Assembly: GCF_014522205.1 (NCBI RefSeq) | Contig: NZ_CP046884.1 | Span: 1,860,001 to 1,924,000 of the forward strand | Length of the DNA stretch: 64,000 bases | DNA from: Corynebacterium poyangense | GTDB lineage: Bacteria > Actinomycetota > Actinomycetes > Mycobacteriales > Mycobacteriaceae | Reading direction: 5' to 3' | Shown here: positions 24,020-43,179 of the stretch, one piece after another | Position numbering within the stretch: position 1 is the stretch's first letter | Layout of the letters: every line of letters starts with the position of its first letter | Translations under genes and position numbers: made by a program | Notes under the pieces: model-generated | Told to the model about the DNA's origin: nothing | The model's database searches: none | Seen by the model: only the letters and a program-made list of their open reading frames with translations

Positions 24020-24059
24020 CCCACTCGATATAGAGCTTTATCGGGTGGGTTTTCTTTTT
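24020..24059 (+). terminator. Intrinsic terminator of hicAB
   Basis: CCCACTCGATA pairs with TATCGGGTGGG across a short loop and is followed by TTTTCTTTTT, a strong rightward terminator. Confidence 0.85.
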
Positions 24060-24103: not shown

Positions 24104-24113
24104 TATAACGTTG

Positions 24114-24128
24114 CGCGTTATTAACGCG
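24114..24128 (+). promoter_or_regulatory. Palindromic operator upstream of higBA
   Basis: CGCGTTA-T-TAACGCG is a perfect 15-bp inverted repeat just before a -10-like TAATATAAT and the higB start. It is the probable HigA or HigBA autoregulation site. Confidence 0.65.
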
Positions 24129-24146
24129 TACAGTAATATAATAATT

Positions 24147-24428: not shown

Positions 24429-24429
24429 G

Positions 24430-24720: not shown

Positions 24721-24737
24721 CCGCTCTTCACGCCGCA

Positions 24738-25169: not shown

Positions 25170-25229
25170 TCTCCCGCCCTTTCATTGCCTGTCGGGTAGT
25201 CGTACCCATTGATGGTGTTTTCATGCCGT

Positions 25230-26593: not shown

Positions 26594-26595
26594 TT

Positions 26596-26793
26596 TTATT
26601 CTTCGCCTTTTCCGAGAATTTTTACCCTGAAGCGTTTATAGGATTCGAGAATTGCGGGTTCCTCCATATTGAATATGAACATCCCAAATAGAAAATCTTC
26701 ACATTCGCTAAATGCGCTTAGACCATCGTAATTTTCGATAATCAATTTCCTGTAGGCATCGAGCGCTTCGCTCTGGTAGTCCCTAATATCCAT
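26596..26793 (-). CDS. Small acidic hypothetical protein
   Basis: 65 aa from ATG at 26,793 (MDIRDYQSEALDAYRKLIIE), with AAAAGGAGAAAACA upstream, a strong site that decides the start. Helical and acidic (SECEDFLFGMFIFNMEEPAI). Function unknown. The frame stays open to an ATG at 26,862, so a longer form is possible. Confidence 0.65.
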   Translation of the reverse strand: MDIRDYQSEALDAYRKLIIENYDGLSAFSECEDFLFGMFIFNMEEPAILESYKRFRVKILGKGEE

Positions 26794-26924
26794 TGTTTTC
26801 TCCTTTTGGTTGGTTTCGTTAAATTCTTGGGTTAATTCTTGTAATTCTTTTTTAATACTCATTTTTAAAGTGCTTTTATTAATGGGGGTTTCCACGGGGG
26901 GGCTAATCCCCTGTGGCTGGCTGT

Positions 26925-27368
26925 TTAGAATGGGCAATCGCCGGGGTTGGTGTTTTGTGCCACACCACCCCACGGGTCACCGTTGCCCTGTGGTTGCGGC
27001 CCGGCCTGTGGTGTGCTACCGCTTCCTTGGCCGGTCTTGGGGATCGCCGCGAGGGTGTCAGCCTGGATTACCGCTTGCGCGCCGGGGGTGCCGTCTTTGG
27101 TGGTGTAGGTTTGGAGCTCCGCGCGCCCGCTTACGATCACGAATTGCCCTTTGGTGAATTGTTCTTGCAGGTCGTATGGGTTTTTCTCCCACATCGTGCA
27201 GGCCCAAAAGGTCGTATTAATCGTCTCCCACTCCCCGGTGGCGTCGTTTTTCCGGTTTCGGTTGTGAGCCACGGTGAAGTGCAGGCCCGTGGTCCCGTTG
27301 CGGGTGGAAAAGACTTCCGGTTGGCCTGTGAGGTTCCCAGTAACAGTGATATGGTTCACATTTTTCAC
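26925..27368 (-). CDS. ssb: Single-stranded DNA-binding protein
   Basis: 147 aa. OB-fold start (VNHITVTGNLTGQPEVFSTR), core WACTMWEKNPYDLQEQFTKG and IVSGRAELQTYTTKDG, a Gly/Pro/Gln tail and an acidic tip ending GDCPF, the interaction peptide variant of SSB. Overlaps RecT by 4 bp. Coats single strands during recombination. Confidence 0.9.
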   Translation of the reverse strand: MKNVNHITVTGNLTGQPEVFSTRNGTTGLHFTVAHNRNRKNDATGEWETINTTFWACTMWEKNPYDLQEQFTKGQFVIVSGRAELQTYTTKDGTPGAQAVIQADTLAAIPKTGQGSGSTPQAGPQPQGNGDPWGGVAQNTNPGDCPF

Positions 27369-28201
27369 TGGTTGTCACCCCCGTTTTGGGCTAGTTGCTC
27401 CCATCGCGTATTAGCTACGGCCCGGATTTTTTCGCGGTGCTCTTCTTCCATGTCGGGGAGATTTTGCATAATCTCGCTGATTATTTCCTGGCTCTCAGCG
27501 GCTTCAATCCGCTCTAGAATAGAGTCGTATTCGCCCTGGCCATCAGCGGTTTTGGTCGCTTCGAGTTGGCGGGCTAGGCGTTGTGTTGGCGATTCGGTAT
27601 CCCGTACCACGCGGCGCGCGGTTGCTCTTACCGGGGCGGGTTCGAGTTCTAGCTCTTCAGCCGAGTAGGTCACCCCGAGTAGCACATCGGGGGCAAGCTT
27701 CCTACATACCTCGCTCGCGGCCTTGGCGTAGAGCATAGCCTGGGGGTCGGTCTGGTACTTTTCATTGCTCTTTGTGTAGCCAGCCCGTTTTGCCCGTTCC
27801 AAGGTCCAGCGGGCCTCTTCGGTCTCTCCGCTCGGGCTGGTACCCCTTACGGTCACGGCCTCTGGAGTGTCCTCCACTGTGCTAAAGGTGTAGCCTTTCG
27901 CTTTAAGTAGAGCCACCATCGTGCGGGCGTAGATGGCGGGCTTGCCGCGCACTACGAAAATTTGCTGCAAGGCTTGCAAGGGTTTTAGTCCCAGCTCAGC
28001 GCCATAAAGTATTGCAGCCGCCCCGTCATCCGGCTTATCTCTGTAGGTGCTTGGCACCATTTGAGTTGCGCATAGGCCTGTGGCTAGCTGGTGGGCGGAT
28101 TGCATAGCTTCCGCCTGCATTTTGAGCAATTCCAACCCGTTGTCGGTTACATCCGGGGTGCTCATAATTTCCCCCTCCACGGGGGTAAGGTCATTACTCA
28201 T
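27365..28201 (-). CDS. recT: RecT-family single-strand annealing protein
   Basis: 278 aa. The core AAAILYGAELGLKPLQALQQ, then VRGKPAIYARTMVALLKAKG, then YAKAASEVCRKLAPDVLLGV is characteristic of RecT/Bet-like phage annealing proteins. It pairs with the YqaJ exonuclease 10 bp upstream. The C-terminus is acidic. Confidence 0.9.
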   Translation of the reverse strand: MSNDLTPVEGEIMSTPDVTDNGLELLKMQAEAMQSAHQLATGLCATQMVPSTYRDKPDDGAAAILYGAELGLKPLQALQQIFVVRGKPAIYARTMVALLKAKGYTFSTVEDTPEAVTVRGTSPSGETEEARWTLERAKRAGYTKSNEKYQTDPQAMLYAKAASEVCRKLAPDVLLGVTYSAEELELEPAPVRATARRVVRDTESPTQRLARQLEATKTADGQGEYDSILERIEAAESQEIISEIMQNLPDMEEEHREKIRAVANTRWEQLAQNGGDNQ

Positions 28202-28211
28202 TGTCTTCCTC

Positions 28212-29138
28212 CTATTTCGTGGTCATGCGTAGCTGTATGCCGCGCTTGGTCATGGACCTTTTAGCAATTACCCCCATTGAGGGGGTGCTGATTGTTTCCG
28301 TGTTTTTTGCTAGATCCAGCACTTTCGCCGCTAAAGCATTGGCTTTTCCATCTGCTTCACGCTTGGCTCGCCCGGCTTCGGCGGCTTCTTTTTTCGCCTC
28401 TAGGAATGATTCCGCCAGTTCATCCGGTATTTCCGTGTCGGTATTTGGTTCTAGCTCCGGGTATGCTTTCCTGGCTATCGCCGCATCAGCCGGTGAGCTA
28501 GGCTCTGGTGCTTCACCACTCAGACTGTGTTCAAACTCACATACTCGCCGTTCTAGGCCTTCTGCAAATTCCGCGTCGTATGAGATTTCAATAATTTTCC
28601 AGTCGTAGTAGGGGCCTGCCACCATGATTTGTGTCGGGTGGTGGATTAGGCCGCTTATGTGCATTTCCCAGGTGACCTGCACCACCCATTCTGGGGGCAA
28701 GGTGTCCAGGTCGAGGTCTTTATATTGCTCCCAGTCGGAGACCGTTTTGAACTGCACATTCCACGAGTTTTTTGGCCCTCTAGCTTTGCCTTTAGGGGTA
28801 GCGATCCGGTCCAGGCTTGCCGCATACTTGCCCCCCATATCGGGGTGGAAGCACTGAACCTCACCCCTAGAAAGGGTGATCTCGGGGTTTTTGATCTTGT
28901 AGTAGGTGGCTAAGGCTTCTTCCATCGCATGGCCGGTGGCCCAGCGGTCTTCTAGCTGCTCGGAGGGCTCCGGGGGCTCCAGGCCATTCATTTCGTGCCA
29001 GATCCTATAGGGGGTGGTGTAGTGGCTCATGCCCGCGATCCCAGGTACCTTTGAGGCGGTGATCATTTCCCGCCATTCTTTACTACCCGGTTTTGCCGGG
29101 CGTTTATTTATATAAAGCCTTTCGGGTGGCTGTGTCAT
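28212..29138 (-). CDS. YqaJ-family viral exonuclease
   Basis: 308 aa from ATG at 29,138 (MTQPPERLYINKRPAKPGSK) with AAAGGAAAAGAAG upstream. Nuclease motifs are SKVPGIAGMSHYTTPYRIWH, EDRWATGHAMEEALATYYK with the catalytic Glu, and WNVQFKTVSDWEQYKD. It resects double-stranded ends for RecT. Four-base overlap with the next upstream gene. Confidence 0.9.
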   Translation of the reverse strand: MTQPPERLYINKRPAKPGSKEWREMITASKVPGIAGMSHYTTPYRIWHEMNGLEPPEPSEQLEDRWATGHAMEEALATYYKIKNPEITLSRGEVQCFHPDMGGKYAASLDRIATPKGKARGPKNSWNVQFKTVSDWEQYKDLDLDTLPPEWVVQVTWEMHISGLIHHPTQIMVAGPYYDWKIIEISYDAEFAEGLERRVCEFEHSLSGEAPEPSSPADAAIARKAYPELEPNTDTEIPDELAESFLEAKKEAAEAGRAKREADGKANALAAKVLDLAKNTETISTPSMGVIAKRSMTKRGIQLRMTTK

Positions 29139-29407
29139 TTTCTTCTTTTCCTTTCTTGAAATTCTTCCCAGTCTTGCTGCAAAATATTCGACCCCCACCT
29201 GGTGATTTCGAGCATGGTTTGATTGAGGGTGACCCGCTTTTTATTTAAAGCCACAAGCCCCAAATTTATTAACCGGTCCACGTCTTTATCCCACTCGATA
29301 GGCTCTTCATTCATAATCGAATTCAAGCGCATAAGCTGCGTCGCTGTGAGTGATCGGTGGATTCTTACCCTTTCAGCCCTGCTCAGGGCTGCTCCCTGCC
29401 TTGCCAA
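29135..29407 (-). CDS. Small hypothetical protein, winged-helix-like
   Basis: 90 aa from TTG with GGAGGAG 2 nt upstream. Helical, with LVALNKKRVTLNQTMLEITR resembling a winged-helix repeat and a basic end (QDWEEFQERKRRK). It overlaps both neighbours, so it belongs to the early transcript. Function unknown. Confidence 0.65.
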   Translation of the reverse strand: MARQGAALSRAERVRIHRSLTATQLMRLNSIMNEEPIEWDKDVDRLINLGLVALNKKRVTLNQTMLEITRWGSNILQQDWEEFQERKRRK

Positions 29408-29712
29408 TGCTCCTCCATGAGTGCTCTAATTAGCTCTTCGCTAATGCCGGTATCTTCAACCAATTGCCGGAAAATATCCTTTTCTTCACCCCCTAAATAA
29501 ATTAGTGTTTGATACTCTTCGATTATGTATTCATAATCGCCTTGTAATTTCGCTATAAACCGCCCTATGGTGGCGGGTTTACACTGAGCACCATTTTCAA
29601 TGAGATCTATAGTACGATTACTCATTCTCGCTATTTTGCCTATTTGCCGCTTTGAATGTGTGGCTTTATATTTAGCGAGCAATTCCCGGGCCCTGATCGC
29701 GGGATCATCCAC
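29383..29712 (-). CDS. Helix-turn-helix early protein
   Basis: 109 aa. THSKRQIGKIARMSNRTIDL is a good XRE-type helix-turn-helix, followed by IENGAQCKPATIGRFIAKLQ. Probably a DNA-binding early regulator. Spacer 7 matches 29,560-29,592 exactly with the AAA flank, within the CKPATIGRF codons, so this is one of the two clearest self-targets. Confidence 0.75.
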   Translation of the reverse strand: MDDPAIRARELLAKYKATHSKRQIGKIARMSNRTIDLIENGAQCKPATIGRFIAKLQGDYEYIIEEYQTLIYLGGEEKDIFRQLVEDTGISEELIRALMEEHWQGREQP

Positions 29713-29718
29713 CTCGCC

Positions 29719-30321
29719 CTACTCCACTTTGAGGTATGCGGCGTATTCTTTGGAGCAAAATTCTAGGTAGGGGGCAAGTAGGTAGAGCGCCTTTTCACGG
29801 GTGGGATTCTCCGGCAATATTCGCCCTTTTTCACCGCTTTTCGCTGCCTCGAGTAAATCTTCAAGGGTGCCGGCACAGACCCCATCTGCGTGGATGACAT
29901 ACCCCTCTCCTGTGTGGTACATCACTACCTCCTGGGGCCCGATCTCCACCTTTACAGCATTAAAATTGGCCAGCGTCAAGCGCACGCTATCGAAATTGGT
30001 GCCAGTAAGATTTGCGTCACACAGATTGGTGTCTTTAAGCCGGGAGCCTGAAAAGTCTGCGCCCGCTAAATTAGCGCCCTGAAAAGATGCTCTCCAAGCG
30101 AAAGTCTCATTTAATGAAGCTCCTGAAAGATCACTATGGCGAAAGTCACACCGCACGATCTCGGAGCCTTGAAAATTCGCCCCTTGCAGCTTCGCCCCCG
30201 CGAAGTCAAGGTCCTGTAAATCAAGCCATGAAAGATCCTCTCTCTCAAGATGGATTACTCTTTCATTGGCCTTGCACTCTTCCAGGTAATCGGATACCTT
30301 TTCGCGCGTCCATTTAGTCAT
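29719..30321 (-). CDS. Pentapeptide repeat protein 1
   Basis: 200 aa. From about residue 35 to 115 it follows the A(D/N)LXX pattern, for example DFAGAKLQGANFQGSEIVRC and GANLAGADFSGSRLKDTNLC, forming a right-handed beta helix. A C-terminal domain (TREKALYLLAPYLEFCSKEY) is shared with its upstream neighbour. Some members of this fold bind DNA gyrase as DNA mimics; function here unknown. Confidence 0.85.
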   Translation of the reverse strand: MTKWTREKVSDYLEECKANERVIHLEREDLSWLDLQDLDFAGAKLQGANFQGSEIVRCDFRHSDLSGASLNETFAWRASFQGANLAGADFSGSRLKDTNLCDANLTGTNFDSVRLTLANFNAVKVEIGPQEVVMYHTGEGYVIHADGVCAGTLEDLLEAAKSGEKGRILPENPTREKALYLLAPYLEFCSKEYAAYLKVE

Positions 30322-30940
30322 TTTTGCTCCATGCTTCTTGTATCGCCGTAAGAAAATGATGATATTTTTTAGAGAAAAGCTCTAGGTAGGGTGCGAGGGC
30401 AAGTAGCTCTTCCATTTGGGCCTCTCTCCCCGGTATTGGCCGATTTTCCATCTCGCCCTTTGCTATCTCGAGTAGTATTTCAAGGGTGGTAGCCAATTCC
30501 CCATCGGCGTAAATCATCCACCCATCAAGCGTGGGATACATCACTAATTTAAACCGATCCTGAATGGCGATTTTCAGGGCATTCAGCTTCGCAAGTTCCA
30601 AAGATGTTTTATCAAGGAACGCCCACGTGAGATTCGCGAGATAAAAATCAGCACCCTTGAAATTTGCCCATGTTAGATCGGCGTGATCTAAATTCGCGTG
30701 AGTAAAGTGTGCGGATATTGCATTTACTTTCGATAGATCCGCGCCGGAAAGATCGCAATTAATAAAGCTACACTCATTTAGTATTGACCTGCTTAGATTG
30801 GCTCCCCGCAGATTCGCACCAAAGAAATTTATTCCTGTCAAGTAGAGATCGGAAAGATCCTCCCCGCGCAAATCTGGCTGGGCCACTTTTGTGTTGCAAA
30901 GCGTCAAGTATTCTTTGATTTTCTCGCGTGTCCATGTCAT
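30314..30940 (-). CDS. Pentapeptide repeat protein 2
   Basis: 208 aa, a diverged tandem paralogue of the previous gene: same start style (TWTREKIKEYLTLCNTKVAQ), repeats such as GANLRGANLSRSILNECSFI, and the same C-terminal module (MEELLALAPYLELFSKKYHH). The overlap of 8 bp suggests the pair arose by duplication and is co-translated. Confidence 0.85.
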   Translation of the reverse strand: MTWTREKIKEYLTLCNTKVAQPDLRGEDLSDLYLTGINFFGANLRGANLSRSILNECSFINCDLSGADLSKVNAISAHFTHANLDHADLTWANFKGADFYLANLTWAFLDKTSLELAKLNALKIAIQDRFKLVMYPTLDGWMIYADGELATTLEILLEIAKGEMENRPIPGREAQMEELLALAPYLELFSKKYHHFLTAIQEAWSKND

Positions 30941-31143
30941 AGGATTCTGAGCTCCTTTTTTGCTAGGTGTACAAGGTATTTACCCAGGTCAAGGGCGTTA
31001 TCGGGGGTGAGGCTGAGCGATGCGGTTGCGCCTCTCCCTTCGGCCTGTATCATGATGAGCCGGTTTCCGCCACGTGGGTTCGGCCACACCCCGACCGTGA
31101 GGTTCAGGTCATCTTGGGGGGCTTCTTCTTTTGCTTTGATCAT
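30937..31143 (-). CDS. Small hypothetical early protein
   Basis: 68 aa (MIKAKEEAPQDDLNLTVGVW). Alternating beta strands and an ALDLGKYLVHLAKKELRIL helix at the end. Overlaps the pentapeptide gene by 4 bp. No family recognised. Confidence 0.65.
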   Translation of the reverse strand: MIKAKEEAPQDDLNLTVGVWPNPRGGNRLIMIQAEGRGATASLSLTPDNALDLGKYLVHLAKKELRIL

Positions 31144-31419
31144 TTATTTTCCTTCTAGGTAGTGGTGCATTTCCGCTGGTGATGGGGCATTACTGATAAT
31201 TGCGGCCATGCGCATATCAGCGGTTATCCACCACACCGCAATGACTGCGATAAGGATCCCGATAGCGGCGAATAGTATGATTATTTTCACCATTTCCTGT
31301 TTGCCGCGTTCATACCCTTCACGGTAGGGGTCATGGGTTTTTCGAGGTGGTGCCTTATACACCCCGGTGATTTTCGCGATTTTTGTCAATTCGTCATCCA
31401 AGTGTGTGTTTTTTGTCAC
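31144..31419 (-). CDS. Single-pass membrane early protein
   Basis: 91 aa from GTG at 31,419 (TKNTHLDDELTKIAKITGVY), with GGAGAC 5 nt upstream. A longer upstream frame is Arg-rich readthrough and rejected. Hydrophobic helix at about residues 44-68 (IIILFAAIGILIAVIAVWW). Possibly a membrane-located early or exclusion protein; function unknown. Confidence 0.65.
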   Translation of the reverse strand: MTKNTHLDDELTKIAKITGVYKAPPRKTHDPYREGYERGKQEMVKIIILFAAIGILIAVIAVWWITADMRMAAIISNAPSPAEMHHYLEGK

Positions 31420-31421
31420 TT

Positions 31422-31598
31422 TTAGTCTCCTGCTATCCAATCCAGGTAGATTTCTTGCACAGTGCCGTGGCGGTCGAGGTAATCTGCGCGGCATTCTTGC
31501 AGCTCTTCTCGGAGCTTTTCCGCTTTCTCTGGATCTTCGGCTTCTTCGATTTCCGCCTTGAGCCGCCGTATAGCTTTTAGGTGGCGTGCTGCTTGCAT
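31422..31598 (-). CDS. Small coiled-coil protein (58 aa)
   Basis: ATG at 31,598 with AAGGAATCACC upstream; stops 2 bp before the next gene. The sequence begins MQAARHLKAIRRLKAEIEEA and ends IYLDWIAGD: a charged amphipathic helix rich in Glu, Lys and Arg. Too short for most gene callers, but site, spacing and codon pattern support it. Function unknown. Confidence 0.6.
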   Translation of the reverse strand: MQAARHLKAIRRLKAEIEEAEDPEKAEKLREELQECRADYLDRHGTVQEIYLDWIAGD

Positions 31599-31650
31599 GG
31601 TGATTCCTTTTCGTCAATTGACGCTATTCCAGCCTGGTTCAGGTATAGGG

Positions 31651-31863
31651 TCATGCCACCCGCATTATTTTTTGCTTCATAAGGCTTACTTCTTTTTTGC
31701 ACCATTCCTCCACCTCATCCGGGTCAAATGTGTAGCGCGCCCCTAGCCGATACGCTGGCAAAGGCCGCTTTTTACGATTCGCTAGCTTGTAGATCAGATT
31801 CCGGCTCACTCCGAGCCTTTTAGCGAGCTCCTTGGCATCCACCCGCTCTACGTTCGTGTCCAT
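31651..31863 (-). CDS. Excisionase-like helix-turn-helix protein
   Basis: 70 aa. It has VDAKELAKRLGVSRNLIYKL, ANRKKRPLPAYRLGARYTFD, and EVEEWCKKE, the layout of the MerR/AlpA-type 'helix_turn_helix_17' excisionase family. It could direct excision or act as an early regulator. Far from the integrase (5 kb), so regulation is as likely as excision. Confidence 0.75.
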   Translation of the reverse strand: MDTNVERVDAKELAKRLGVSRNLIYKLANRKKRPLPAYRLGARYTFDPDEVEEWCKKEVSLMKQKIMRVA

Positions 31864-32263
31864 TAGAACTCCTTTTCGAATTTCAGGTTATTTAAGGGCC
31901 TGTGTACACAGCTTTCCTCTCACCACGGGAAGGCTTGGGGTCATGGAGGCGCTTTGCCACCAATCCAAATGGCTTTCATGCACACGGCCCGGTGGTCACA
32001 TGAGGAATCGAACCCCATTAAAAACCGTTGTGACCTGGTATTTATATTCGCGCCCTGGGTTCCCTCCTGCCGGCACCACCCGGTAAGGTTCCAACGCCCG
32101 CGCGGGATCATGGAGGCACATTAAGGCTGCTATCCTCTACCCGCCGGTAAGTATCTTCAGGCGCTATGCACTATGAAATTTTCAAATATCACAAAACCAA
32201 ACATGTGTTCGGTTTTTCGTGTCTAGTGGTGCGGTTGAAACACCATCCCCGGCCCGGCCCGGT
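31864..32263. other. Gene-free early regulatory interval
   Basis: About 400 bp with no convincing gene upstream of the excisionase-like gene. It holds a tRNA-acceptor/T-arm-like hairpin (31,994-32,035), two copies of TCATGGAGGC (31,951 and 32,109), and an imperfect palindrome ACCAAACATGTGTTCGGT near 32,196 that looks like an operator. Probably a long untranslated leader or regulatory region of the leftward early operon. Confidence 0.5.
31994..32035 (-). other. tRNA minihelix-like hairpin
   Basis: Read leftward: GGTCACA, an 11-nt linker, TGGGG-TTCGATT-CCTCA (a 5-bp stem with a 7-nt T-loop-like loop), then TGTGACC followed by ACC. The outer 7 bp are perfect and the stacked order is that of a tRNA T-arm plus acceptor stem, without D or anticodon arms. 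Not a tRNA; possibly a tRNA-like element or the remnant of one. Confidence 0.4.
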
Positions 32264-32374
32264 CTAGACCCCGCCGCCCACGTAGGCGGCGATCCCATGC
32301 AAGGCTTCTAGATCTGGCTCCACACCCACTCCCATGAGGGCGTGAATTGTGTCACTAATTTCTTCCGGTGTCAT
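32264..32374 (-). CDS. Tiny hypothetical protein (36 aa)
   Basis: ATG with GGAGGAACA directly upstream, an ideal ribosome binding site. It begins MTPEEISDTIHALMGVGVEP and ends AAYVGGGV. Its start overlaps the previous small gene as ATGA. It shares the phrase GVEP-x2-x-LEAL with that neighbour, suggesting the two arose by duplication. Confidence 0.55.
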   Translation of the reverse strand: MTPEEISDTIHALMGVGVEPDLEALHGIAAYVGGGV

Positions 32375-32493
32375 TGTTCCTCCCGGTCAGCGGTGACCAC
32401 GCTTGCCAAGGCTTCTAGCAGCTTTTCGCTAGGCTCCACGCCCGCCGCCCGGTAAGCGGCTTCCCACTGCTCCACCAACCCACAATCTGTCAT
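32371..32493 (-). CDS. Tiny hypothetical protein (40 aa)
   Basis: Begins MTDCGLVEQWEAAYRAAGVE and ends SVVTADREEQ, overlapping the next gene by 4 bp. The AGVEPSEKLLEALA segment resembles GVEPDLEALHGIA of the neighbour. Upstream CAGGGAGTGAG gives a plausible binding site. Confidence 0.55.
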   Translation of the reverse strand: MTDCGLVEQWEAAYRAAGVEPSEKLLEALASVVTADREEQ

Positions 32494-32503
32494 GTGATAA
32501 AAC

Positions 32504-32899
32504 TCACTCCCTGAAAAGGTCAGCCATTGAATCAATCACACCATGACGGATGAGCACCGCTGCCGCTTCCTTGATTTCCTGCGCTGGCAAGATTTTCGCA
32601 GTATCACCGCAAGGCCATTGGACCGGCGCACTTTCCTGGATTACCGCTTCATATCCGGCATCTCTCAAGATTTTCAGCCTTACATGTGCAGATGAGCGTG
32701 ATTTGAACCACTTATTCGGATTTGGTCTAAGCCATTTTGTGGTTCCGAATCGTTTGCAATAATCTTCGCTCGGGGTCCATCCGATCGGCCTAAGGGCTTC
32801 CACTTCTTCGGCGCGGTCCCCTTTCATGACTATGGCGGTGTACTCCACAAATTCCGGCTCCGAGATCACATGAACCCGGTACATAGGCTGGCTTTCCAT
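32504..32899 (-). CDS. Hypothetical early protein
   Basis: 131 aa (MESQPMYRVHVISEPEFVEY), preceded by GAAAGGAAAGAAAA. Mixed alpha/beta with FKSRSSAHVRLKILRDAGYE. Not recognised. Spacer 47 matches 32,710-32,742 exactly, with flank GAA, over the TKWLRPNPNK codons: the second clear self-target. Confidence 0.7.
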   Translation of the reverse strand: MESQPMYRVHVISEPEFVEYTAIVMKGDRAEEVEALRPIGWTPSEDYCKRFGTTKWLRPNPNKWFKSRSSAHVRLKILRDAGYEAVIQESAPVQWPCGDTAKILPAQEIKEAAAVLIRHGVIDSMADLFRE

Positions 32900-32912
32900 T
32901 TTTCTTTCCTTT

Positions 32913-33701
32913 CTATGCTGCTTCGATCCCTGGCTTCGGCTCGTGTGCCCATTTCTTCACGGCTTTGACCACTGCTTCCGCCCCGCGCGGCGTGAGCTTG
33001 AGGGTTTGTTGTACTTCCCCGCTAATCCGGGGTGCCTCATGGCACGGGATCAGCCGGAAAAGGTGCTTTTTATTCGCATAGGCCCGATATTGACAAACGC
33101 TAATAATCCGATTTTTCTTGTTTGACCAGCGATTTCCCTCAATCCTGTAGATCCATTTATGATCTATCAAGATTTGCCGTAATTCCGCTTCCTTGACCTG
33201 CAACTGATTAGCGAGAGTACGGAATTGAATCAAATCCTCATCGGCCACGAATTCATCAAAATAATCCGCCTTGGGTCGCAATTCAGCATTCACTGCTTCT
33301 AGCTGCTCATGGACATTGGCCAACTCCCTCAGCGCCTCGGGTAAAGATTGAGGGAGCCTGAAGGCGGGGGTAGCTAGCCGCCTTTCCATCACGACAAAAG
33401 CTTTAATGAGATTCTTTTTGAAGCTCCGCACTACCGGAGTATTTCTCATATAGGTCATCAGAAGCATCGCATGCTCACGATTCAACACCGCGTACTCGGT
33501 TGCTTTGGCGAATCCGCCCTGTGGAAGTGGTTTACCCTTTCGGATTTCAAATCCGACTGGGCCGAACTCCTCAAAATCCTTGAGATTGTTGCGTACTAGC
33601 TTCAGTACGCTTCCGTGCTGATTCTCCGTACCCTCTGCGATGATGAGGGATGTTGTTGTGGGTACCCCTGTAGAGGAAGCCTGAACTAAATTCATTTCCA
33701 T
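32913..33701 (-). CDS. Phage antirepressor (Rha/ANT type)
   Basis: 262 aa. The N-terminal Rha-like domain (NLKDFEEFGPVGFEIRKGKP, EYAVLNREHAMLLMTYMRNT) is followed by a coiled-coil linker and a KilAC/ANT C-terminal domain (LIQFRTLANQLQVKEAELRQ, LKLTPRGAEAVVKAVKKWAH). It probably antagonises the lytic repressor. Confidence 0.85.
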   Translation of the reverse strand: MEMNLVQASSTGVPTTTSLIIAEGTENQHGSVLKLVRNNLKDFEEFGPVGFEIRKGKPLPQGGFAKATEYAVLNREHAMLLMTYMRNTPVVRSFKKNLIKAFVVMERRLATPAFRLPQSLPEALRELANVHEQLEAVNAELRPKADYFDEFVADEDLIQFRTLANQLQVKEAELRQILIDHKWIYRIEGNRWSNKKNRIISVCQYRAYANKKHLFRLIPCHEAPRISGEVQQTLKLTPRGAEAVVKAVKKWAHEPKPGIEAA

Positions 33702-33704
33702 CGC

Positions 33705-34079
33705 TTAAAACTCCTTTTTCCACCCGTCGATAGCGACTTTTTCCATGACCCCATTGAGGCCGGGTTTGTCAATAATGTTGTACAGAATGCCGGCAATTCC
33801 CCTGAACGCGTGCGCAAATAAAATCCCAGCTAGTTCAGGTGATTTAGTCGCTGACATGACAGCGTCCAGCCATTCATCGACGTCCTCATCGGTGCGAATA
33901 TGCGCTAAGAACTCATAGCCGAATTTCATTGCTACGATGGAAAGTTCATCCATATCGGGAAGAGTTAGGAAGCCTGCTGGCAGACCGTCTTCCCCGTATC
34001 CAAGGACAGCATTCCTTTTCGGGTCAAATGGGTGCTCTGCAAGATATTTTTCACGAGCTTCGACAATTTCAGGATTCAT
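33705..34079 (-). CDS. Hypothetical early protein
   Basis: 124 aa (MNPEIVEAREKYLAEHPFDP), acidic and helical (ELAGILFAHAFRGIAGILYN). First gene after cro in the leftward early transcript, with AAGGAGATTG upstream. No recognised family. A CCCCGCC/GGCGGGG hairpin at 34,114-34,136 separates it from cro. Confidence 0.65.
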   Translation of the reverse strand: MNPEIVEAREKYLAEHPFDPKRNAVLGYGEDGLPAGFLTLPDMDELSIVAMKFGYEFLAHIRTDEDVDEWLDAVMSATKSPELAGILFAHAFRGIAGILYNIIDKPGLNGVMEKVAIDGWKKEF

Positions 34080-34136
34080 GTGCTACAATCTCCTTACTCA
34101 TTGGTGTTATCCCCCCGCCCTAGTGGCGGGGTTTTC

Positions 34137-34403
34137 TCATGCCGCGATAGTCTTGACCATTCGAGCGCGTCGAACCTGAACCTTTTCCTCGGTGACGTCA
34201 AACGCCTCCTGAAAAGAGACCGGGTAATGCGCCAGCACTGCTCCAATAAACCGGGGGCTAGCTTCCGCCTGCCGCCTCGCATGTCGACTCACGGTGGACT
34301 TAGTGACGCCGACTTTGCTAGCGAAGCGCTCTAAGGTGCCCTCTCGCTTGATTGCACTATCGAGCCAATCGCGGTTCACGCGGACTGTATTCACCGTCTG
34401 CAT
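34137..34403 (-). CDS. Cro-like helix-turn-helix protein
   Basis: 88 aa from ATG at 34,403 (MQTVNTVRVNRDWLDSAIKR), with GGAGG upstream. TLERFASKVGVTKSTVSRHA is a helix-turn-helix. It is divergent from the repressor across a 141-bp control region, as expected for the lytic-side repressor. Confidence 0.75.
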   Translation of the reverse strand: MQTVNTVRVNRDWLDSAIKREGTLERFASKVGVTKSTVSRHARRQAEASPRFIGAVLAHYPVSFQEAFDVTEEKVQVRRARMVKTIAA

Positions 34404-34544
34404 TGGAACCTCCATTGTTTTAGAACTTCTTACTGTTGTTTTGTTACAACCTGAAGCTAACACACAATGGTGCTCCTGCGCAACTTTTAATTGGAATGGG
34501 CCAACACCTTGCACCGTTGCGCGTGTGCAACTATAATTAATGGC
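34404..34544. promoter_or_regulatory. Genetic switch region
   Basis: A rightward promoter TTGCAC–17 bp–TATAAT (34,509-34,537) ends 7 bp before the repressor ATG, so the repressor mRNA is probably leaderless. The inverted repeats TTGCAC…GTGCAA and GTTGC…GCAAC overlap it, and a further TGCGCAAC half-site lies near 34,476. These are the likely repressor/Cro operators. Confidence 0.7.
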
Positions 34545-35174
34545 ATGACAAACACGCGTTGGTGGAACTACGTAACCGAGGTAATCGGTGGCTCCACATA
34601 CAGAGAAGCTGCAGACCGAGCTGGATTCGACAAATCCGCATTTACCCGGTGGAAGAAAGGTGCCCGTGCTGACCCTGACTTTGTGGTCAAGCTCGCCCGA
34701 GCCTATAACACCAACGTTATAGAAGCCCTGGTAGAAGCTGAATTTATCACTAAGGAAGAGGCTAAGAATACCCCATATGGCAGCGGGTGGTCATACATAG
34801 CGCCTCAACAAGTCAGCGCGCTAGATGAGACAATGCGGCGCATCTTTGATGCGCAAAATGAAATCACTAGGCAATGGGATGGGTTTAATGCTTCCCTCAA
34901 GAGAGTTAAAGAGGCTTTGAGGAAAATTGAGGAAGAGAATCCATATTCAAGTAAAGAGATTGCCCATATAGTTAAAGCCTTTAATAGGGGTGACTTAAGC
35001 GAGGATGCTACAGAAGAGCAAATCGATGAATGGCTGGCTAACAACCCGCCGGTAGATGAACTTGCCGAGCGGCGCGAGCGGCGCGAGGGTGGATTTAATT
35101 TTGATGAGGCGGTGGCTAATAGCGCCCCTGATGAGCCAGGCCCCGGCGATGAGGGATACCATGATGGCCCCTAG
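34545..35174 (+). CDS. Phage repressor
   Basis: 209 aa from ATG at 34,545 (MTNTRWWNYVTEVIGGSTYR). N-terminal XRE-like helix-turn-helix (EAADRAGFDKSAFTRWKKGA) and VVKLARAYNTNVIEALVEAE typical of actinophage immunity repressors. The C-terminus is acidic, with no peptidase motif, so induction probably depends on the ImmA-like protease downstream. Confidence 0.75.
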   Translation: MTNTRWWNYVTEVIGGSTYREAADRAGFDKSAFTRWKKGARADPDFVVKLARAYNTNVIEALVEAEFITKEEAKNTPYGSGWSYIAPQQVSALDETMRRIFDAQNEITRQWDGFNASLKRVKEALRKIEEENPYSSKEIAHIVKAFNRGDLSEDATEEQIDEWLANNPPVDELAERRERREGGFNFDEAVANSAPDEPGPGDEGYHDGP

Positions 35175-35365
35175 CCGGGGGAGGATGGGGGTAATGATTG
35201 ATTCCGGCTACTACAACATTTGGCGGGCGGTAAGTTACGCGCTATGCTCCAAGCATCAGCCCGAGCCGTTGACCCTCCGCGATAAGGAGAGTGCCGATGA
35301 CTCGGGCCATAACACGGGGGTGGTCGGGGGTGGTCGTGTCCATCCCGCCGACTATAAATTTTGCC

Positions 35366-35761
35366 ATGAGTACTGACGATCTTTTCGCCCTTGCTGAGAG
35401 CATGGGGCTAAAAATTGAGTGGCACTCAGGCCGCGCAAGCGGCTACTACCACCACCACGAAGGCGTAATATCCCTCAGAGAGGGCTTGACTGATCCCATG
35501 CTTCGCTGCACCTTAGCACATGAAATTGCTCACGCTATCAGGGGCGATAACCCTTGCGATACCGAATGGGCAAATCGGCGCATGGAGCGGGCCGCTGATC
35601 TTTTGGCCGCTTCGCTCCTGATCAGCGTGGAAGATTACGCCCAGGCTGAGATCCTGCACGGCCCTACCCCCGCCGCTATCGCCCAAGAACTCGGCGTGAC
35701 CAGGCACATCCTCGAAACATGGCAAACATCACACCGGAATTTTCAGGTGCAAAATTACTAA
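35366..35761 (+). CDS. ImmA/IrrE-type metallopeptidase
   Basis: 131 aa from ATG at 35,366, 7 bp after a TATAAA box (probably leaderless). The zinc motif is LAHEIAHAIRG, with RMERAADLLAASLLI supplying the third ligand region. In related phages such proteases cleave the repressor on DNA damage. It follows the repressor gene directly. Confidence 0.85.
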   Translation: MSTDDLFALAESMGLKIEWHSGRASGYYHHHEGVISLREGLTDPMLRCTLAHEIAHAIRGDNPCDTEWANRRMERAADLLAASLLISVEDYAQAEILHGPTPAAIAQELGVTRHILETWQTSHRNFQVQNY

Positions 35762-35812
35762 TCTCCCTAGAGCAAGATAGCCTGAAACTCAGGCCCTAAA
35801 AGGAAGGAAAAT

Positions 35813-36238
35813 ATGGATACGATCAAAAATACTTTTATCTACTTAAAGAATCGCCCCCGGCTTCTCGCCTATATCTCAATAGGCTTCGGAATCATGGGGG
35901 CCATATCCAGCTTTACGCTTCTAACCATTGGCTTTATAAGCTTTCTTGGCTATTTTATGGCTTCCATTGCGCTCGGAATCCCCGGCGCGTGGTGGCTACA
36001 CTGCGATAGGAAGGACCGCGCGATAGTGGCGAAGGAAGCCGAAGTCAAAGGCTATTATCAGTACCTCACGGAGGAAGAAAAGGATCTTTTGGGAGGACCC
36101 GCCCCGATCAAAAAGACCCCCCGCAGGTGGAAGAGTGTGTTAATTATCACATTTATCGTGTTCTTCGTCGGGGCTGCACTCATGCCACAAGATCTCGCAA
36201 AATTACCCACTTACGGTGTGCAGTACCAGCCAAAATAA
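35813..36238 (+). CDS. Lysogeny-region membrane protein
   Basis: 141 aa. Two hydrophobic segments in the N-terminal half (LAYISIGFGIMGAISSFTLL, LGYFMASIALGIPGAWWL), a charged cytosolic loop and a third near the C-terminus (LIITFIVFFVGAALM). The upstream AAGGAAGGAAAAT is shared with the lipoprotein gene. A superinfection-exclusion role is plausible from its place between repressor and integrase. Confidence 0.7.
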   Translation: MDTIKNTFIYLKNRPRLLAYISIGFGIMGAISSFTLLTIGFISFLGYFMASIALGIPGAWWLHCDRKDRAIVAKEAEVKGYYQYLTEEEKDLLGGPAPIKKTPRRWKSVLIITFIVFFVGAALMPQDLAKLPTYGVQYQPK

Positions 36239-36286
36239 GCTATTTTTAGGCTAAATATTTTTCTATTTTAAGGAAGGAAAATCCGT

Positions 36287-36805
36287 ATGCGTACCCAGCG
36301 CCTATTAGCCGGCATCGCCGCTACCATAATGCTCCCCACTCTCTTAGCGGGCTGCTCAGGTGATAGCGACACCACCAGCACATCTACTACTACCAGCACA
36401 AAGGCATCTAGTAGCACGACATCTTCCACTTCGAGCGCTGCCAGCTCCACTACTTCCCCGGCTGATCCGGCCCCGGTAGAGCCGAATCAGGTCCAGCAAA
36501 ATAGCGGGGGTGGCCAGCATGGATTTGTGGCACCACCACCTGCCCCGGCCCCTGCACCAGCACCGGCGGGCGGTAATGACGCGCCCGCACCTGCCCCGGC
36601 ACCTGCTCCTGAGAATCCCCCGGTAGCCGAGAATCCTCCCGCACCGGCACCCGCACCTGATCCAGGCCCGGCCCCAGCGGATGTCTACTACGCAAATTGC
36701 GATGAAGTACGAGCCGCTGGCAAGGCCCCACTACGGGTGGGTGACCCAGGCTATCGGCCTAAGCTAGACCGCAATAACAACGGCTTGGCCTGCGAAGATG
36801 ACTAA
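36287..36805 (+). CDS. Lipoprotein with excalibur calcium-binding domain
   Basis: 172 aa. Lipoprotein signal with LPTLLAGCSG lipobox, a Ser/Thr-rich linker, a long Pro/Ala-rich rod, and a C-terminal excalibur motif (YANCDEVRAAGKAPL and DRNNNGLACEDD). Exported and surface-anchored. Prophage lipoproteins of this design are often exclusion or host-modifying (conversion) factors. Strong terminator follows. Confidence 0.85.
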   Translation: MRTQRLLAGIAATIMLPTLLAGCSGDSDTTSTSTTTSTKASSSTTSSTSSAASSTTSPADPAPVEPNQVQQNSGGGQHGFVAPPPAPAPAPAPAGGNDAPAPAPAPAPENPPVAENPPAPAPAPDPGPAPADVYYANCDEVRAAGKAPLRVGDPGYRPKLDRNNNGLACEDD

Positions 36806-36814
36806 ATATTAAAA

Positions 36815-36840
36815 GACCCCCTAGCCAGGCTAGAGGGGTC
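36815..36840 (+). terminator. Hairpin terminator after the lipoprotein gene
   Basis: GACCCCCTAGCC pairs with a GGCTAGAGGGGTC strand around a short loop. It separates the lysogeny genes from the integrase; the T-run is weak. Confidence 0.6.
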
Positions 36841-36891
36841 AGTGTCAGCAAGTGGAAACAAAGATCACACTCGCAAGAAAGAGGATAGCAC

Positions 36892-38022
36892 ATGGCTGTG
36901 CAAAAGAGAATTCGGGGTGGCAAAGCGCGGTGGGTTGCCCGCTACCGCTCGCCTTCAGGAAAAGAGCACTCTAAGACCTTCGATACCAGGCGGGAAGCAA
37001 CCGCGTGGCTTGCAGAGCGTGAAAGAGAGCTACGCCGAGGTGAATGGATAGACCCAAATGAGAGAAATATCACTCTCCTAGAGCTTGTGGAGGAAATCGG
37101 TAGCACTTTCACCCGTGAGAGCACCCGCAATAGCTATGACTTTTTGGCCCGGAATCTTGGCCCCTTAGCTGATATGCCTTTGCGCGCTATTAGGCGCTCT
37201 GATCTGGAGAAATGGCAGGCGCAGTTGCTCTCGGGCAGGCCGTGGCAAGGGGGTAAGCCTTTGTACCAAAGTACCGTGAATGGCATGCGAGGAAGGCTAA
37301 ATAACTCGCTCAAAATTGCGATTAATGACGGACTCCTTACCCATAACCCCTTGGCCAAGGTGAGCCGGATTGAGCCTGAGCGCCGTACTATCGCGCCCCG
37401 TGATATACCTGACGAAAACTGGATTGAGATATTTATCACAAATATTAAGAATCCAGCATTACTGCTCATGGTGAAAATCGCGGTAGCTACCGGCATGCGA
37501 GCCAGCGAAATAGCCGGGCTATCCACCACAGATATTGACCCGGCCGGGTGCTCTATTCATGTGAGCTATCAGGCCCATCGGCGTAAAGGGCATTTGCTGC
37601 CACTGAAGACCCCATCCTCCTACCGTGTGATCCTTATTACTCCGGATCTTATGGGCGAAATTAGGGAATGGATTGCTGAGCACCCTCACCCGAGCGGCAG
37701 GCTTTTTGTGACCCGCACCGGTCGGCCTATGAGCTATGACGCAATGCAAAAGGCGTGGGAGACGGCGGTGGAAAGATCCGGGCTTCAGGGTGGCTTCACG
37801 TGGCACTCACTACGGCATTATCACGCTACAAAGCTGATTAGGGCGGGGGTACCGATTAAGACCGTGCAGGCCCGATTAGGGCATGCCAGCGCTGCTATGA
37901 CCCTGGATATTTATCTTCATGCGATCCCTGGGGATGATGAGCTTGCTGCGCGAGTGGCGGGTGATCTTCTTCCGCATGCGGGACCAGCGCGGGACGGGGA
38001 TAAACGATTAAAGGCTATATAA
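36892..38022 (+). CDS. int: Tyrosine integrase
   Basis: 376 aa. N-terminal arm-binding domain (MAVQKRIRGGKARWVARYRS), core-binding domain, and catalytic residues: Arg in ATGMRASEIAGL, HSLRH, and the LGHASAAMTLDIYLH end with the Tyr nucleophile. The leader repeats AGTGTCAGCAAG, seen upstream of the 583 and 1202 genes. The att site should lie just beyond 38,022, where CRISPR-like repeats begin. Confidence 0.95.
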   Translation: MAVQKRIRGGKARWVARYRSPSGKEHSKTFDTRREATAWLAERERELRRGEWIDPNERNITLLELVEEIGSTFTRESTRNSYDFLARNLGPLADMPLRAIRRSDLEKWQAQLLSGRPWQGGKPLYQSTVNGMRGRLNNSLKIAINDGLLTHNPLAKVSRIEPERRTIAPRDIPDENWIEIFITNIKNPALLLMVKIAVATGMRASEIAGLSTTDIDPAGCSIHVSYQAHRRKGHLLPLKTPSSYRVILITPDLMGEIREWIAEHPHPSGRLFVTRTGRPMSYDAMQKAWETAVERSGLQGGFTWHSLRHYHATKLIRAGVPIKTVQARLGHASAAMTLDIYLHAIPGDDELAARVAGDLLPHAGPARDGDKRLKAI

Positions 38023-38067: not shown

Positions 38068-38156
38068 TGTTTTACCGCGTGCGCGGAGGTATTTCTGCGC
38101 AAGCCGGGGATTGGTACTTGGACTCCCACAATTCTCCGCACACGCGGAAGTATTTC
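38068..38156 (+). CRISPR. Inverted two-repeat CRISPR remnant
   Basis: A degenerate repeat (38,068-38,095), a 33-nt spacer (38,096-38,128) and a near-consensus repeat (38,129-38,156, with CAATTCTCCG at the start and GTATTTC at the end). The orientation is opposite to the main array. The spacer resembles a tail-fibre segment of this prophage near 5,700 over its last part (TACCAATCCCCGGC shared). Confidence 0.8.
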
Positions 38157-38890: not shown

Positions 38891-38978
38891 GACCTAACTT
38901 CGCACCCACGGAGAATAGGCCGGGGAGGTTACTGCATACCCGGTATAAATGAAATACCTCCGCGCACGCGGAGAATTG
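38891..38978 (-). CRISPR. Outlying repeat-spacer-repeat unit
   Basis: A degenerate repeat (38,891-38,918, about 20/28 matches), a 32-nt spacer (38,919-38,950) and a near-perfect repeat (38,951-38,978), in the same orientation as the main array. It is separated from the main array by 877 bp of gene-bearing DNA. Confidence 0.8.
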
Positions 38979-39855: not shown

Positions 39856-42800
39856 GAAATACCTCCGCACACGCGGAGAATTGGCTTCACCTGCGGGAAT
39901 GTCCTCCCCCTTGGTGGAAATACCTCCGCACACGCGGAGAATTGAATCCACCAATCCATCACATAATGCTTTGAGAGGAAATACCTCCGCACACACGGAG
40001 AATTGGGTGACGGCGTTGCTGTTCTCGCTCAGCTTTCAGAAATACCTCCGCACACACGGAGAATTGGCGGATATGCCCCGGGAGAATACTAATGACAAGG
40101 AAATACCTCCGCGTGCGCGGAGAATTGTTGGTGAAAAAGGCGCTAGTTGGCACAGACCTGGAAATACCTCCGCGTGCGCGGAGAATTGAGCTACTAATGC
40201 CTGATCGTCGTGCGGCTTCTGGAAATACCTCCGCGTGCGCGGAGAATTGGGTGCTCAGTGTAAACCCGCCACCATAGGGCGGGAAATACCTCCGCGTGCG
40301 CGGAGAATTGTCGGTAAAGTTTAGGGGGGAACCCCCGGCTATGGAAATACCTCCGCGTGCGCGGAGAATTGTCGGCACGGTCGCCGGATCAGACATTAGA
40401 GAAGGAAATACCTCCGCGTGCGCGGAGAATTGGTACAAAGGCGACTACACGGGGCTGCCGTTTGGGAAATACCTCCGCGTGCGCGGAGAATTGGCAATCG
40501 GTAAATGCGCGGCCACTAAGCTACCGGAAATACCTCCGCGTGCGCGGAGAATTGTGGGTATGTGGGGTGGAGAATTCCTTTATGATGGAAATACCTCCGC
40601 GTGCGCGGAGAATTGGGAGTGGGGTTGGTGCGGTAGTCGGGTGATGGGGAAATACCTCCGCGTGCGCGGAGAATTGAGAAACGCGTCTCGCACGGCCACA
40701 CAATCCGGGGAAATACCTCCGCGTGCGCGGAGAATTGATTAAGCCAGGTCGCCGGGTGAGGAATAAATTGGAAATACCTCCGCGTGCGCGGAGAATTGAG
40801 ACCGTCCATGCTGGGTTCGCCGCCCGGCATGGAAATACCTCCGCGTGCGCGGAGAATTGCGTCCCAGGTACATTCCAGCCGGTTAATATCGGGAAATACC
40901 TCCGCGTGCGCGGAGAATTGAAATATATTGTAAGTGGTGACTTGACATACATGGAAATACCTCCGCGTGCGCGGAGAATTGAGAATCAACACTAATAGCA
41001 CACCAATAATCGAGGAAATACCTCCGCGTGCGCGGAGAATTGTATGCTCTTCGGTCAGCCTACGGCCCGCGCTAGGAAATACCTCCGCGTGCGCGGAGAA
41101 TTGCCACGGGGGATTAGCCCCCCGTGGAAACCCCCAGAAATACCTCCGCGTGCGCGGAGAATTGATCCACCACCACCCCGGCATCAGGCCGGTTGCGGAA
41201 ATACCTCCGCGTGCGCGGAGAATTGTTGAGGTAGGGGGTACGCTCACCGGCCAAGAGTAGAAATACCTCCGCGTGCGCGGAGAATTGTGCTTCTGGCCAC
41301 ATTTTCCCTGGCACGCGGCGGAAATACCTCCGCGTGCGCGGAGAATTGTGCAGCGTGACGCTGTGACCCTCGCCACGCGGGGAAATACCTCCGCGTGCGC
41401 GGAGAATTGTGGGGGTGTTATTTGTCCATTGTGTCAGCAAAAGAAATACCTCCGCGTGCGCGGAGAATTGCTGTTAACCCCCACCCAGCTAACGCACCTG
41501 TGAGAAATACCTCCGCGTGCGCGGAGAATTGCATACTGCGACGGCCCGATGATGGTATTTGCGGGAAATACCTCCGCGTGCGCGGAGAATTGCCAGGCCG
41601 GCTTGCTTTTTTCTGTGCTCTTCGGGAAATACCTCCGCGTGCGCGGAGAATTGCCTATCTGTTCGGCTCACGGCCACCAGTAATGGGAAATACCTCCGCG
41701 TGCGCGGAGAATTGGCGGTGTCGGAGTTTCTACCTGGAGCGCGTATGGAAATACCTCCGCGTGCGCGGAGAATTGTTCTAGTGTGCGGATGTATCCCTTG
41801 AACTTAAGGAAATACCTCCGCGTGCGCGGAGAATTGTGGGGCAGGAAAACGACGAAAATCATACCCAGGGAAATACCTCCGCGTGCGCGGAGAATTGCGG
41901 GGTTGAGTTGGTCAGCGCATTCGCTTACTGGAAATACCTCCGCGTGCGCGGAGAATTGTGGGGGCTGTACGCACTCGATGTAGAAAGGATGTGAAATACC
42001 TCCGCGTGCGCGGAGAATTGAATTTCACTTCTGGATCTTCCGCCACGAGAATGGAAATACCTCCGCGTGCGCGGAGAATTGTGGATCCCGAGAAATTCTT
42101 GGGCATTCCCGTGGGAAATACCTCCGCGTGCGCGGAGAATTGACGTGGAGTCAGCGATGAAGTTACCAACCTTTGGAAATACCTCCGCGTGCGCGGAGAA
42201 TTGAGGGAACCCCGGTTGTTGTTTTCCGGTTTGTTGGAAATACCTCCGCGTGCGCGGAGAATTGCGCAAAAATCAAGCTCACTCACAACCTGAGCAGGAA
42301 ATACCTCCGCGTGCGCGGAGAATTGTGGATCCCGAGAAATTCTTGGGCATTCCCGTGGGAAATACCTCCGCGTGCGCGGAGAATTGACGTGGAGTCAGCG
42401 ATGAAGTTACCAACCTTTGGAAATACCTCCGCGTGCGCGGAGAATTGCTATCTTGATCGAGTCCAAATAGGTGGACAACGGAAATACCTCCGCGTGCGCG
42501 GAGAATTGCTGTGACACTTCAGGCGCGGAAATAACTCCCGGGAAATACCTCCGCGTGCGCGGAGAATTGACGTCGGAAGCGACCCAGCGGGCTTCGCCGT
42601 CGGAAATACCTCCGCGTGCGCGGAGAATTGCGGGGTGGTGTTTGGTTGTGGGGGGTTTGTGTGGAAATACCTCCGCGTGCGCGGAGAATTGACTTATTCG
42701 GATTTGGTCTAAGCCATTTTGTGGGAAATACCTCCGCGTGCGCGGAGAATTGGGTGAATTCCATGATTAGTGAAGCCCGTGCTAGGAAATACCTCCGCGT

Positions 42801-43179
42801 GCGCGGAGAATTGGAAGCCCCCGGCTATCTCGAACATAGCCGGGGGGAAATACCTCCGCGTGCGCGGAGAATTGCTGATCACCTCCAAGATCGGGCTGTG
42901 ATTGATAGAAATACCTCCGCGTGCGCGGAGAATTGCTCGGGAATAGGTCAAAACTTTCTCAGTAGCCAGAAATACCTCCGCGTGCGCGGAGAATTGCAGC
43001 AGAGTTTACGTGGGAGCCCGCCCAGGCGGGAAATACCTCCGCGTGCGCGGAGAATTGCCAACAAAACGATAATAACCGTGGCCTTTGTTGGAAATACCTC
43101 CGCGTGCGCGGAGAATTGCGTTCACCGGGGCTTGCCTGCACGCCGTGCGTGGAAATACCTCCGCGTGCGCGGAGAATTG
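39856..43179 (-). CRISPR. CRISPR array, 55 repeats / 54 spacers, type I-E-like
   Basis: 28-bp repeats with a CTCCGCG/CGCGGAG stem alternate with 33-nt spacers (two of 34 nt), period 61. The left four repeats carry CACACG/CACACA variants; the rest are identical. Five bases precede the stem and seven follow when read leftward, as in known I-E repeats, and the base after the repeat is mostly C. So transcription is probably leftward with the leader right of 43,179. Spacers 37-38 recur as 41-42. At least 20 spacers match the prophage in this window. No cas genes are present here. Confidence 0.97.

Follow-up and report, generated by a model that had tools for sequence, protein, structure and literature searches.

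A candidate phage-borne mimic of the CreR RNA and a frameshifted cas3 in a self-targeted lysogen of Corynebacterium poyangense

Introduction

CreR, an RNA that resembles a crRNA, guides Cascade in repressing its own cas operon. Cas-regulating RNAs of this kind have been described for types I-B, I-E and V-A; in the available portions of these papers they comprise a pseudo-repeat with a 5′ handle and a short pseudo-spacer that partly matches the cas promoter region, beside the cognate cas operon (PMC13131331, PMC12737573). Racrs are phage-borne mimics of the host CRISPR repeat that are proposed to weaken CRISPR-Cas, with tested examples for type I-E. As the accessible text describes them, they are solitary repeats without a guide, RacrIF1 has no 5′ handle, and a rule for their discovery discards repeats with neighbours within 100 bp (PMC10651486). 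Viruses may also carry CRISPR mini-arrays of few repeats and short guides that use host Cas proteins; in the part of that work available, their repeats are identical to those of the host and they mostly target related viruses (PMC11656645). Our literature search, which covered no preprints and a minority of subscription papers, found these three systems and no phage-encoded CreR mimic, which is weak evidence of novelty. It is likewise a known situation that self-targeting is tolerated because a cas gene is broken or an inhibitor acts.

Here we analyse a window of 64,000 nucleotides from Corynebacterium poyangense (contig NZ_CP046884.1, positions 1,860,001 to 1,924,000), in which a type I-E CRISPR array stands beside a prophage that some of its spacers match exactly. 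Exact spacers tolerated against resident prophages are nothing different in kind, but the self-targeting load is high, with five distinct exact self-targets carrying an AA protospacer adjacent motif (PAM) in two prophages. At one prophage end lies a candidate RNA unit that shares with CreR the pseudo-repeat, the 5′ handle and the short pseudo-spacer, features also seen in the host and at nine related loci, where the host element itself belongs to the known kind. The phage unit differs in that it lies on a prophage away from the cas genes and copies the seed of the host CreR, and we therefore call it a CreR mimic and not a CreR. Nor is it a Racr by the published rule, as far as the available text gives it, since its four repeats are 53–54 nt apart and not solitary (PMC10651486); units of this type have clustered repeats, a handle and a guide seed, and their proposed action is RNA-guided repression. 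From the virus-borne mini-arrays it differs in its imperfect repeats and in a seed that matches the host cas promoter region. Positions below are those of the window unless marked as genome positions.

Results

The array and its targets in the window

39856..43179, minus strand (guide sense minus): type I-E CRISPR array, 55 repeats and 54 spacers
38951..38978, minus strand: lone repeat copy past the trailer end of the main array
29560..29592, plus strand: protospacer of spacer 7, exact, PAM AA
32710..32742, minus strand: protospacer of spacer 47, exact, PAM AA
17506..17538, plus strand: protospacer of spacer 33, exact, PAM GA
13916..13948, plus strand: protospacer of the identical spacers 37 and 41, exact, PAM CA

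The array repeat is 28 nt long and present in 55 copies, with spacers of 33 nt (n = 52) or 34 nt (n = 2). Degenerate repeat copies sit at the left end of the array, which suggests that the leader lies on the right. Part of the array is duplicated, as spacers 37–38 (42082–42175) recur as 41–42 (42326–42419). Spacer 49 (42814–42846) is itself an inverted repeat and resembles, with five mismatches, a hairpin near the end of cas5 (genome 1847387–1847419).

Outside the array, four distinct spacers (7, 33, 37=41 and 47) match the prophage in the window over all 33 bases, six (22, 24, 26, 29, 36 and 50) with one mismatch and ten (1, 2, 15, 20, 21, 23, 25, 28, 46 and 48) with three to seven. This amounts to 21 of the 54 spacers, 20 of them distinct, at seven mismatches or fewer, and spacer 16 follows with nine at its best match. 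The best matches of 1080 shuffled spacers had 10–15 mismatches, never fewer than ten, and those of the 54 reversed spacers 11–14. The preliminary description of this DNA had reported the exact and single-mismatch matches, all of which direct comparison reproduced, the exact ones at the same coordinates; its further claim of at least ten spacers with a few mismatches also held, in the form of the ten with three to seven. Read in the guide sense, the two bases before the spacer are AA in 13 of the 21 distinct matches (spacer 16 included), GA in four and another pair in four, and for this reason we take AA, together with GA, as the probable PAM. The expectation, stated in the same description, that a working system should destroy such a lysogen depends on a good PAM, and among the four distinct exact spacers against this prophage AA is found only at spacers 7 and 47.

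The mismatched spacers are most simply read as a memory of relatives of the prophage. Spacer 16 lies nearer to a prophage stretch of another genome, G120, with three mismatches, and is the sole spacer with a near match in phage records, to phage Stiles (94% over 34 bases), which appears there twice. A search of plasmid records with the spacers gave no match.

A second self-targeted prophage

The genome is a single contig of 2,617,997 bp. Spacers that match the window were compared with the window, and the genome-wide search covered those with no window match of nine mismatches or fewer, 30 of 31 distinct spacers; the exception, spacer 8, was compared with the window and with 2.02–2.08 Mb. This search, which the preliminary description had proposed, brought out further self-targets. 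At 2.046–2.054 Mb lie exact targets with AA for spacers 17, 34 and 51, along with a target preceded by GA that spacer 9 matches at all but one position. The stretch encodes matches to terminase, portal and integrase proteins and is therefore a second prophage. The exact AA-PAM self-targets are thus those of spacers 7, 47, 17, 34 and 51. No pseudo-repeat was found around the second prophage in a scan allowing up to three substitutions.

The prophage in the window and its borders

2228..38022, no strand assigned: prophage body, from lysis-side genes to the integrase (36892–38022)
583..1053, plus strand: ORFan and candidate accessory gene of 156 aa, with no record found besides its own
1202..1576, plus strand: ORFan of 124 aa, only its own record found
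1626..2192, plus strand: 188-aa frame with a weak helix-turn-helix match at its end, below the Pfam cut-offs
38068..38156, plus strand: remnant of a second array of opposite sense, with part of a repeat, a 33-nt spacer (38096–38128) and a repeat (38129–38156)

Comparison of the two prophage ends for attachment sites gave only an imperfect, gapped match, and the exact borders were not found. The spacer of the remnant, right after the integrase, matches the prophage at 5698–5730 with eight mismatches (next best 13); the prophage adjoins the remains of another array that once held a spacer against its family. A CRISPR repeat is possible as the attachment site of the prophage, given the broken repeat that follows the integrase, but no matching left end was found. 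The flanking genes showed no synteny with the relatives compared. Just upstream of the phage unit, and opposite to it in direction, begins a small open frame of 56 aa (277–447); in the viral stretch L035 and in genome G149 the start at this place is that of a larger gene.

The cas locus and its frameshifted cas3

According to the preliminary description, coexistence of array and lysogen implied that cas genes are missing or silent or that the prophage inhibits the system, and a complete type I-E operon was to be sought elsewhere. No gene is missing: all eight (cas8e, cas11, cas7, cas5, cas6e, cas3, cas1 and cas2) lie about 3.5–12.5 kb to the left of the window, cas8e-cas11-cas7-cas5 on the minus strand and cas6e-cas3-cas1-cas2 on the plus strand. 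The cas3 gene is frameshifted, and inhibition by the prophage finds support of an unexpected kind, at the level of sequence, in the candidate CreR-mimicking mini-array described below.

The frameshift falls after the helicase part and leaves an open frame of 722 aa, against single frames of 879–952 aa in the ten best relatives. In tblastn comparisons with Cas3 of six relatives, one frame aligned up to position 2679 of stretch L003 and another from about 2679–2682, the two alignments overlapping for three of the six. The out-of-frame C-terminal tail is still 44% identical to Cas3 of the related genome G225. No run of more than three identical letters occurs at the frame change, and about 15 bases earlier there are four A in a row. 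Type I-E interference requires an intact Cas3, which this assembly does not contain, and a sequencing error is possible; the break is either recent or an assembly error. As the C-terminal part is still conserved, the break may postdate the lysogenies. A real break should put an end to interference without keeping Cascade from binding, on the supposition that Cas3 needs its C-terminal domain. Provided the assembly is correct, the break suffices for coexistence with the prophages. The related genome G148 also has a broken cas3, with a break of its own.

There is no array after the cas2 gene, unlike in most of the relatives scanned. The 3 kb between cas2 and the prophage (L003 4548–8000, genome 1856548–1860000) contain a short match to a phage head protein and a tRNA-like 3′ half.

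CreR-like elements beside the cas genes

Pseudo-repeats with a short pseudo-spacer lie upstream of cas8e in this and in related genomes, the host element at genome 1851640–1851757 with the pseudo-repeat pattern at 1851734–1851756. Eleven loci were looked at; G109 was dropped for want of a clear pseudo-repeat, and the host and nine others were scored, with pseudo-spacer anchors picked by eye. At nine of the ten scored loci the pseudo-spacer matches a site 72–81 nt further on, upstream of cas8e, at 13–15 of 15 read positions, and second-best sites reach 8–10 of 15. Within these nine, positions 1–5 and 7–11 never mismatch and positions 6 and 12 mismatch in six of nine each; the pattern there had already been noticed on inspection when these two positions were left out of the score. 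Type I-E guides leave every sixth base unpaired, and the mismatches at 6 and 12 are therefore the expected trace of real binding. Pseudo-spacer and site co-vary between species across the genus, and the PAM-like bases at the nine sites are GA (four), TA (three) and AA (two). The host element, with its pseudo-repeat beside the cas operon, matches the cas promoter region at 15 of 15 read positions, with TA as its PAM and not AA. These elements presumably act as CreR in these bacteria.

At the tenth locus, that of G149, the pseudo-spacer has no match among the adjacent sites. About 80 nt upstream of the cas8e frame lies a site with AA that differs from it at one of ten read positions, a match that is weak when taken alone in a 30-kb search. 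By comparison with that of G225, the CreR element of G148 (stretch L098) has lost a unit.

A candidate CreR-mimic unit at the prophage end

30..250, minus strand: candidate CreR-mimic RNA unit of four pseudo-repeats, three pseudo-spacers and a terminator-like hairpin
191..218, minus strand: pseudo-spacer PS1, with 9 of 10 read seed positions in agreement with the host CreR and with the CreR site upstream of cas8e
137..164, minus strand: pseudo-spacer PS2, no target found
84..111, minus strand: pseudo-spacer PS3, no target found
35..57, minus strand: terminator-like hairpin with a T tail

The unit stands at the prophage end beyond the lysis genes, near an endolysin gene by PHROGs, and about 8.5 kb from the cognate cas operon. 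Because the left prophage border was not found, its ownership by this prophage can only be inferred. The stems of its pseudo-repeats start at 66, 119, 172 and 226 on the plus strand, and the repeats differ from those of the host array in loop and flanks. Each of the three stem gaps measures 36 nt, compared with 45 in the array; short, CreR-like gaps of 33 or 36 nt are general among the phage units described here, the L037 group excepted. The RNA folds better than its shuffles (z −5.27), and no sigma-70-like promoter was found at the unit.

The first unit has the same handle as the host CreR. Position 7 of PS1 is a mismatch to the target, and beyond the seed the two sequences diverge; PS2 and PS3 do not match the cas promoter region. 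The match of PS1 to the cas8e site is unremarkable in a free 100-kb search and counts only as an in-register comparison with one element. Scanned against about 100 kb of host sequence, PS1–PS3 had best matches with 9–11 mismatches of 28. A pattern combining CreR and PS1 occurs in one of 242 genomes of the genus, the host, at exactly these two places.

Similar units on other phages and in G149

Pseudo-repeat patterns hit 25 and 13 viral stretches in two scans, six of them shared; most look like chance matches, and we read only L032, L035, L037, L044 and L047 as CreR mimics. L035 and L047 have two pseudo-repeats followed by a GC-rich hairpin and a T run, and their seed equals that of the G149 CreR at 10 of 10 read positions. 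The seeds of L032, L037 and L044 match the G225 CreR at 9 of 10. Inspection by eye preceded the seed comparison, which retained as non-matching members PS2, PS3 and L034, whose repeat is solitary and lacks a CreR seed; four of 70 distinct seed–host pairs reach nine or more. In the controls, spacers of the host array scored at most 7 against the ten CreR seeds (540 pairs) and those of relatives' arrays at most 8 (2020 pairs), and shuffled seeds reached nine or more in 294 of 1,400,000 comparisons. Specific seed matches of this kind recur in two phage groups besides that of the window.

The units of L035 and L037 lie near an endolysin gene, as judged from translations, and a search of phage records with both units gave no match. 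No cas gene was found in the stretches of the five mimic contigs, four of them covered in part and with cas6e absent from the usable queries. The L037-type pattern was found in none of the 242 genomes. Scanned with up to three substitutions, seven related prophages of the genus (13 stretches) and three related viral contigs, with G099 and the viral contigs covered in part, gave a few scattered pattern matches and no convincing host-type pseudo-repeats. A lone full CRISPR repeat in a viral contig, noted at L034 5649–5673 and at L101 7111–7131 (genome G211), directly adjoins what looks like the end of a tRNA gene and may be a solitary repeat at an attachment site.

The L035 pattern occurs in one of the 242 genomes, G149, exactly at 2072211–2072238 and with three mismatches at the G149 CreR, 524 kb away. 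The G149 unit lies near an endolysin gene by PHROGs; its seed agrees with the CreR at 10 of 10 read positions, and with the site upstream of cas8e at all but one of ten. All eight cas genes have open frames, cas6e being assigned by position only. When the 30 array spacers of G149 were compared with 60 kb around the unit, spacer 18 had an exact target with AA, which falls in a dUTPase gene at a distance of 19 kb from the unit. Spacer 12 had one mismatch with GG before it, spacer 17 three with GA, and spacers 2 and 22 six each. Phage-like genes lie between unit and dUTPase, which suggests that both belong to one prophage. One chromosome, that of G149, thus holds a candidate mimic and the CreR that it matches, open frames for all eight cas genes, and a self-targeting spacer with an exact match and an AA PAM.

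Discussion

From sequence evidence, we read the unit as phage-borne CreR mimicry, an RNA-guided anti-CRISPR. With a probability of roughly 0.6, temperate corynephages carry mini-arrays that copy the seed of the host CreR and lead host Cascade to shut its own cas operon, the seed tracking the host in an arms race over the cas promoter sequence. In the cell analysed here, interference is probably off in two separate ways. By the frameshift, Cas3 would end after the helicase part with the conserved C-terminal domain in another frame, and function should be lost: Cascade may remain able to locate the prophages, but the enzyme that cuts them should be inactive. The second way would be the CRISPR-like unit of the prophage, whose first guide appears to copy the seed of the host's CreR-like RNA. 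Its RNA would be transcribed and processed by Cas6e, loaded by Cascade and led to the region upstream of cas8e; repression there would lower the supply of Cascade, and a targeted phage could lysogenise under this protection. Such a mimic would explain how targeted phage entered while cas3 still worked, and how G149 tolerates its prophage without a broken gene.

The mimic is not needed in the host genome, as the cas3 break already suffices. Weighing against it, too, are the failure to find a sigma-70-like promoter at the unit, the mismatch of PS1 at position 7 and its divergence beyond the seed, the lack of a target for PS2 and PS3, the presence of AA at no more than two of the nine adjacent CreR sites, the absence of the L037-type pattern from all 242 genomes and the seven related prophages in which the scan gave no convincing pseudo-repeats. 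That the frameshift at L003 about 2679–2682 acted alone, so that a host without interference was freely lysogenised by two remembered phages and the mini-array is idle in this strain, is a serious possibility to which we give somewhat less than even odds. Both prophages are self-targeted and the scan around the second, at up to three substitutions, found no pseudo-repeat; G148 likewise has a broken cas3. Yet loss of cas3 leaves unexplained why PS1 repeats the seed of the host CreR and why G149, with all eight cas frames open, carries its self-target, and, with its C-terminal part still conserved (44% to G225), cas3 may have broken after the lysogenies. G149, for its part, could be protected by other inhibitors.

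The four repeat mimics on a prophage, and the tested Racrs of type I-E, also raise the idea of a Racr-like sponge whose repeats titrate Cas6e or Cas7, with the seed match irrelevant. We regard this as unlikely: in three phage groups the seeds match the CreR of the phage's own host or of another genome, the published rule, in its available text, would discard repeats so closely spaced, and RacrIF1 is described there without the 5′ handle, whereas these units have handle and seed (PMC10651486).

Two further explanations are each rather improbable. ORFans followed by a helix-turn-helix gene are common in anti-CRISPR loci, and the frames at 583–1053 and 1202–1576, which have no relatives beyond their own record, precede such a possible gene; a protein anti-CRISPR encoded beside the unit might therefore do the work. 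Against it, there is no match in PHROGs or above the Pfam cut-offs, and the same genes were not found beside the units of other phages. Alternatively, an error in assembly or sequencing may have produced the cas3 frameshift in a system that is in fact intact. One sequencing error would indeed leave a single frame change ahead of a conserved tail, and the four A stand about 15 bases before it, but the frame change itself has no run of more than three letters, the chromosomal genes checked show no signs of broken domains, and an intact system would need to tolerate five exact AA-PAM self-targets.

That the pseudo-repeats at 61–245 descend from a host array, cut off when the prophage inserted and since decayed, as the true array remnant at the other end (38068–38156) might suggest, is very improbable given the opposite sense of that remnant, the stem gap of 36 nt three times against 45 in the array, the terminator-like hairpin, the seed match to CreR and the similar units already seen on other phages away from any array.

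On the preferred reading, a frameshifted cas3 together with a CreR-mimicking unit, the puzzle of a living, self-targeted lysogen would come down to two concrete causes. G149 makes the idea of a CreR mimic directly testable, with open cas frames, an exact self-targeting spacer and a mimic in one chromosome. If the idea is true, the units would be anti-CRISPRs that need no protein and that redirect Cascade rather than block it, and they would be predictable from sequence, as the seed of a host CreR would tell which phage unit to expect. Phages would then be exploiting the very feedback loop that keeps CRISPR-Cas low, turning the immune complex on its own genes.
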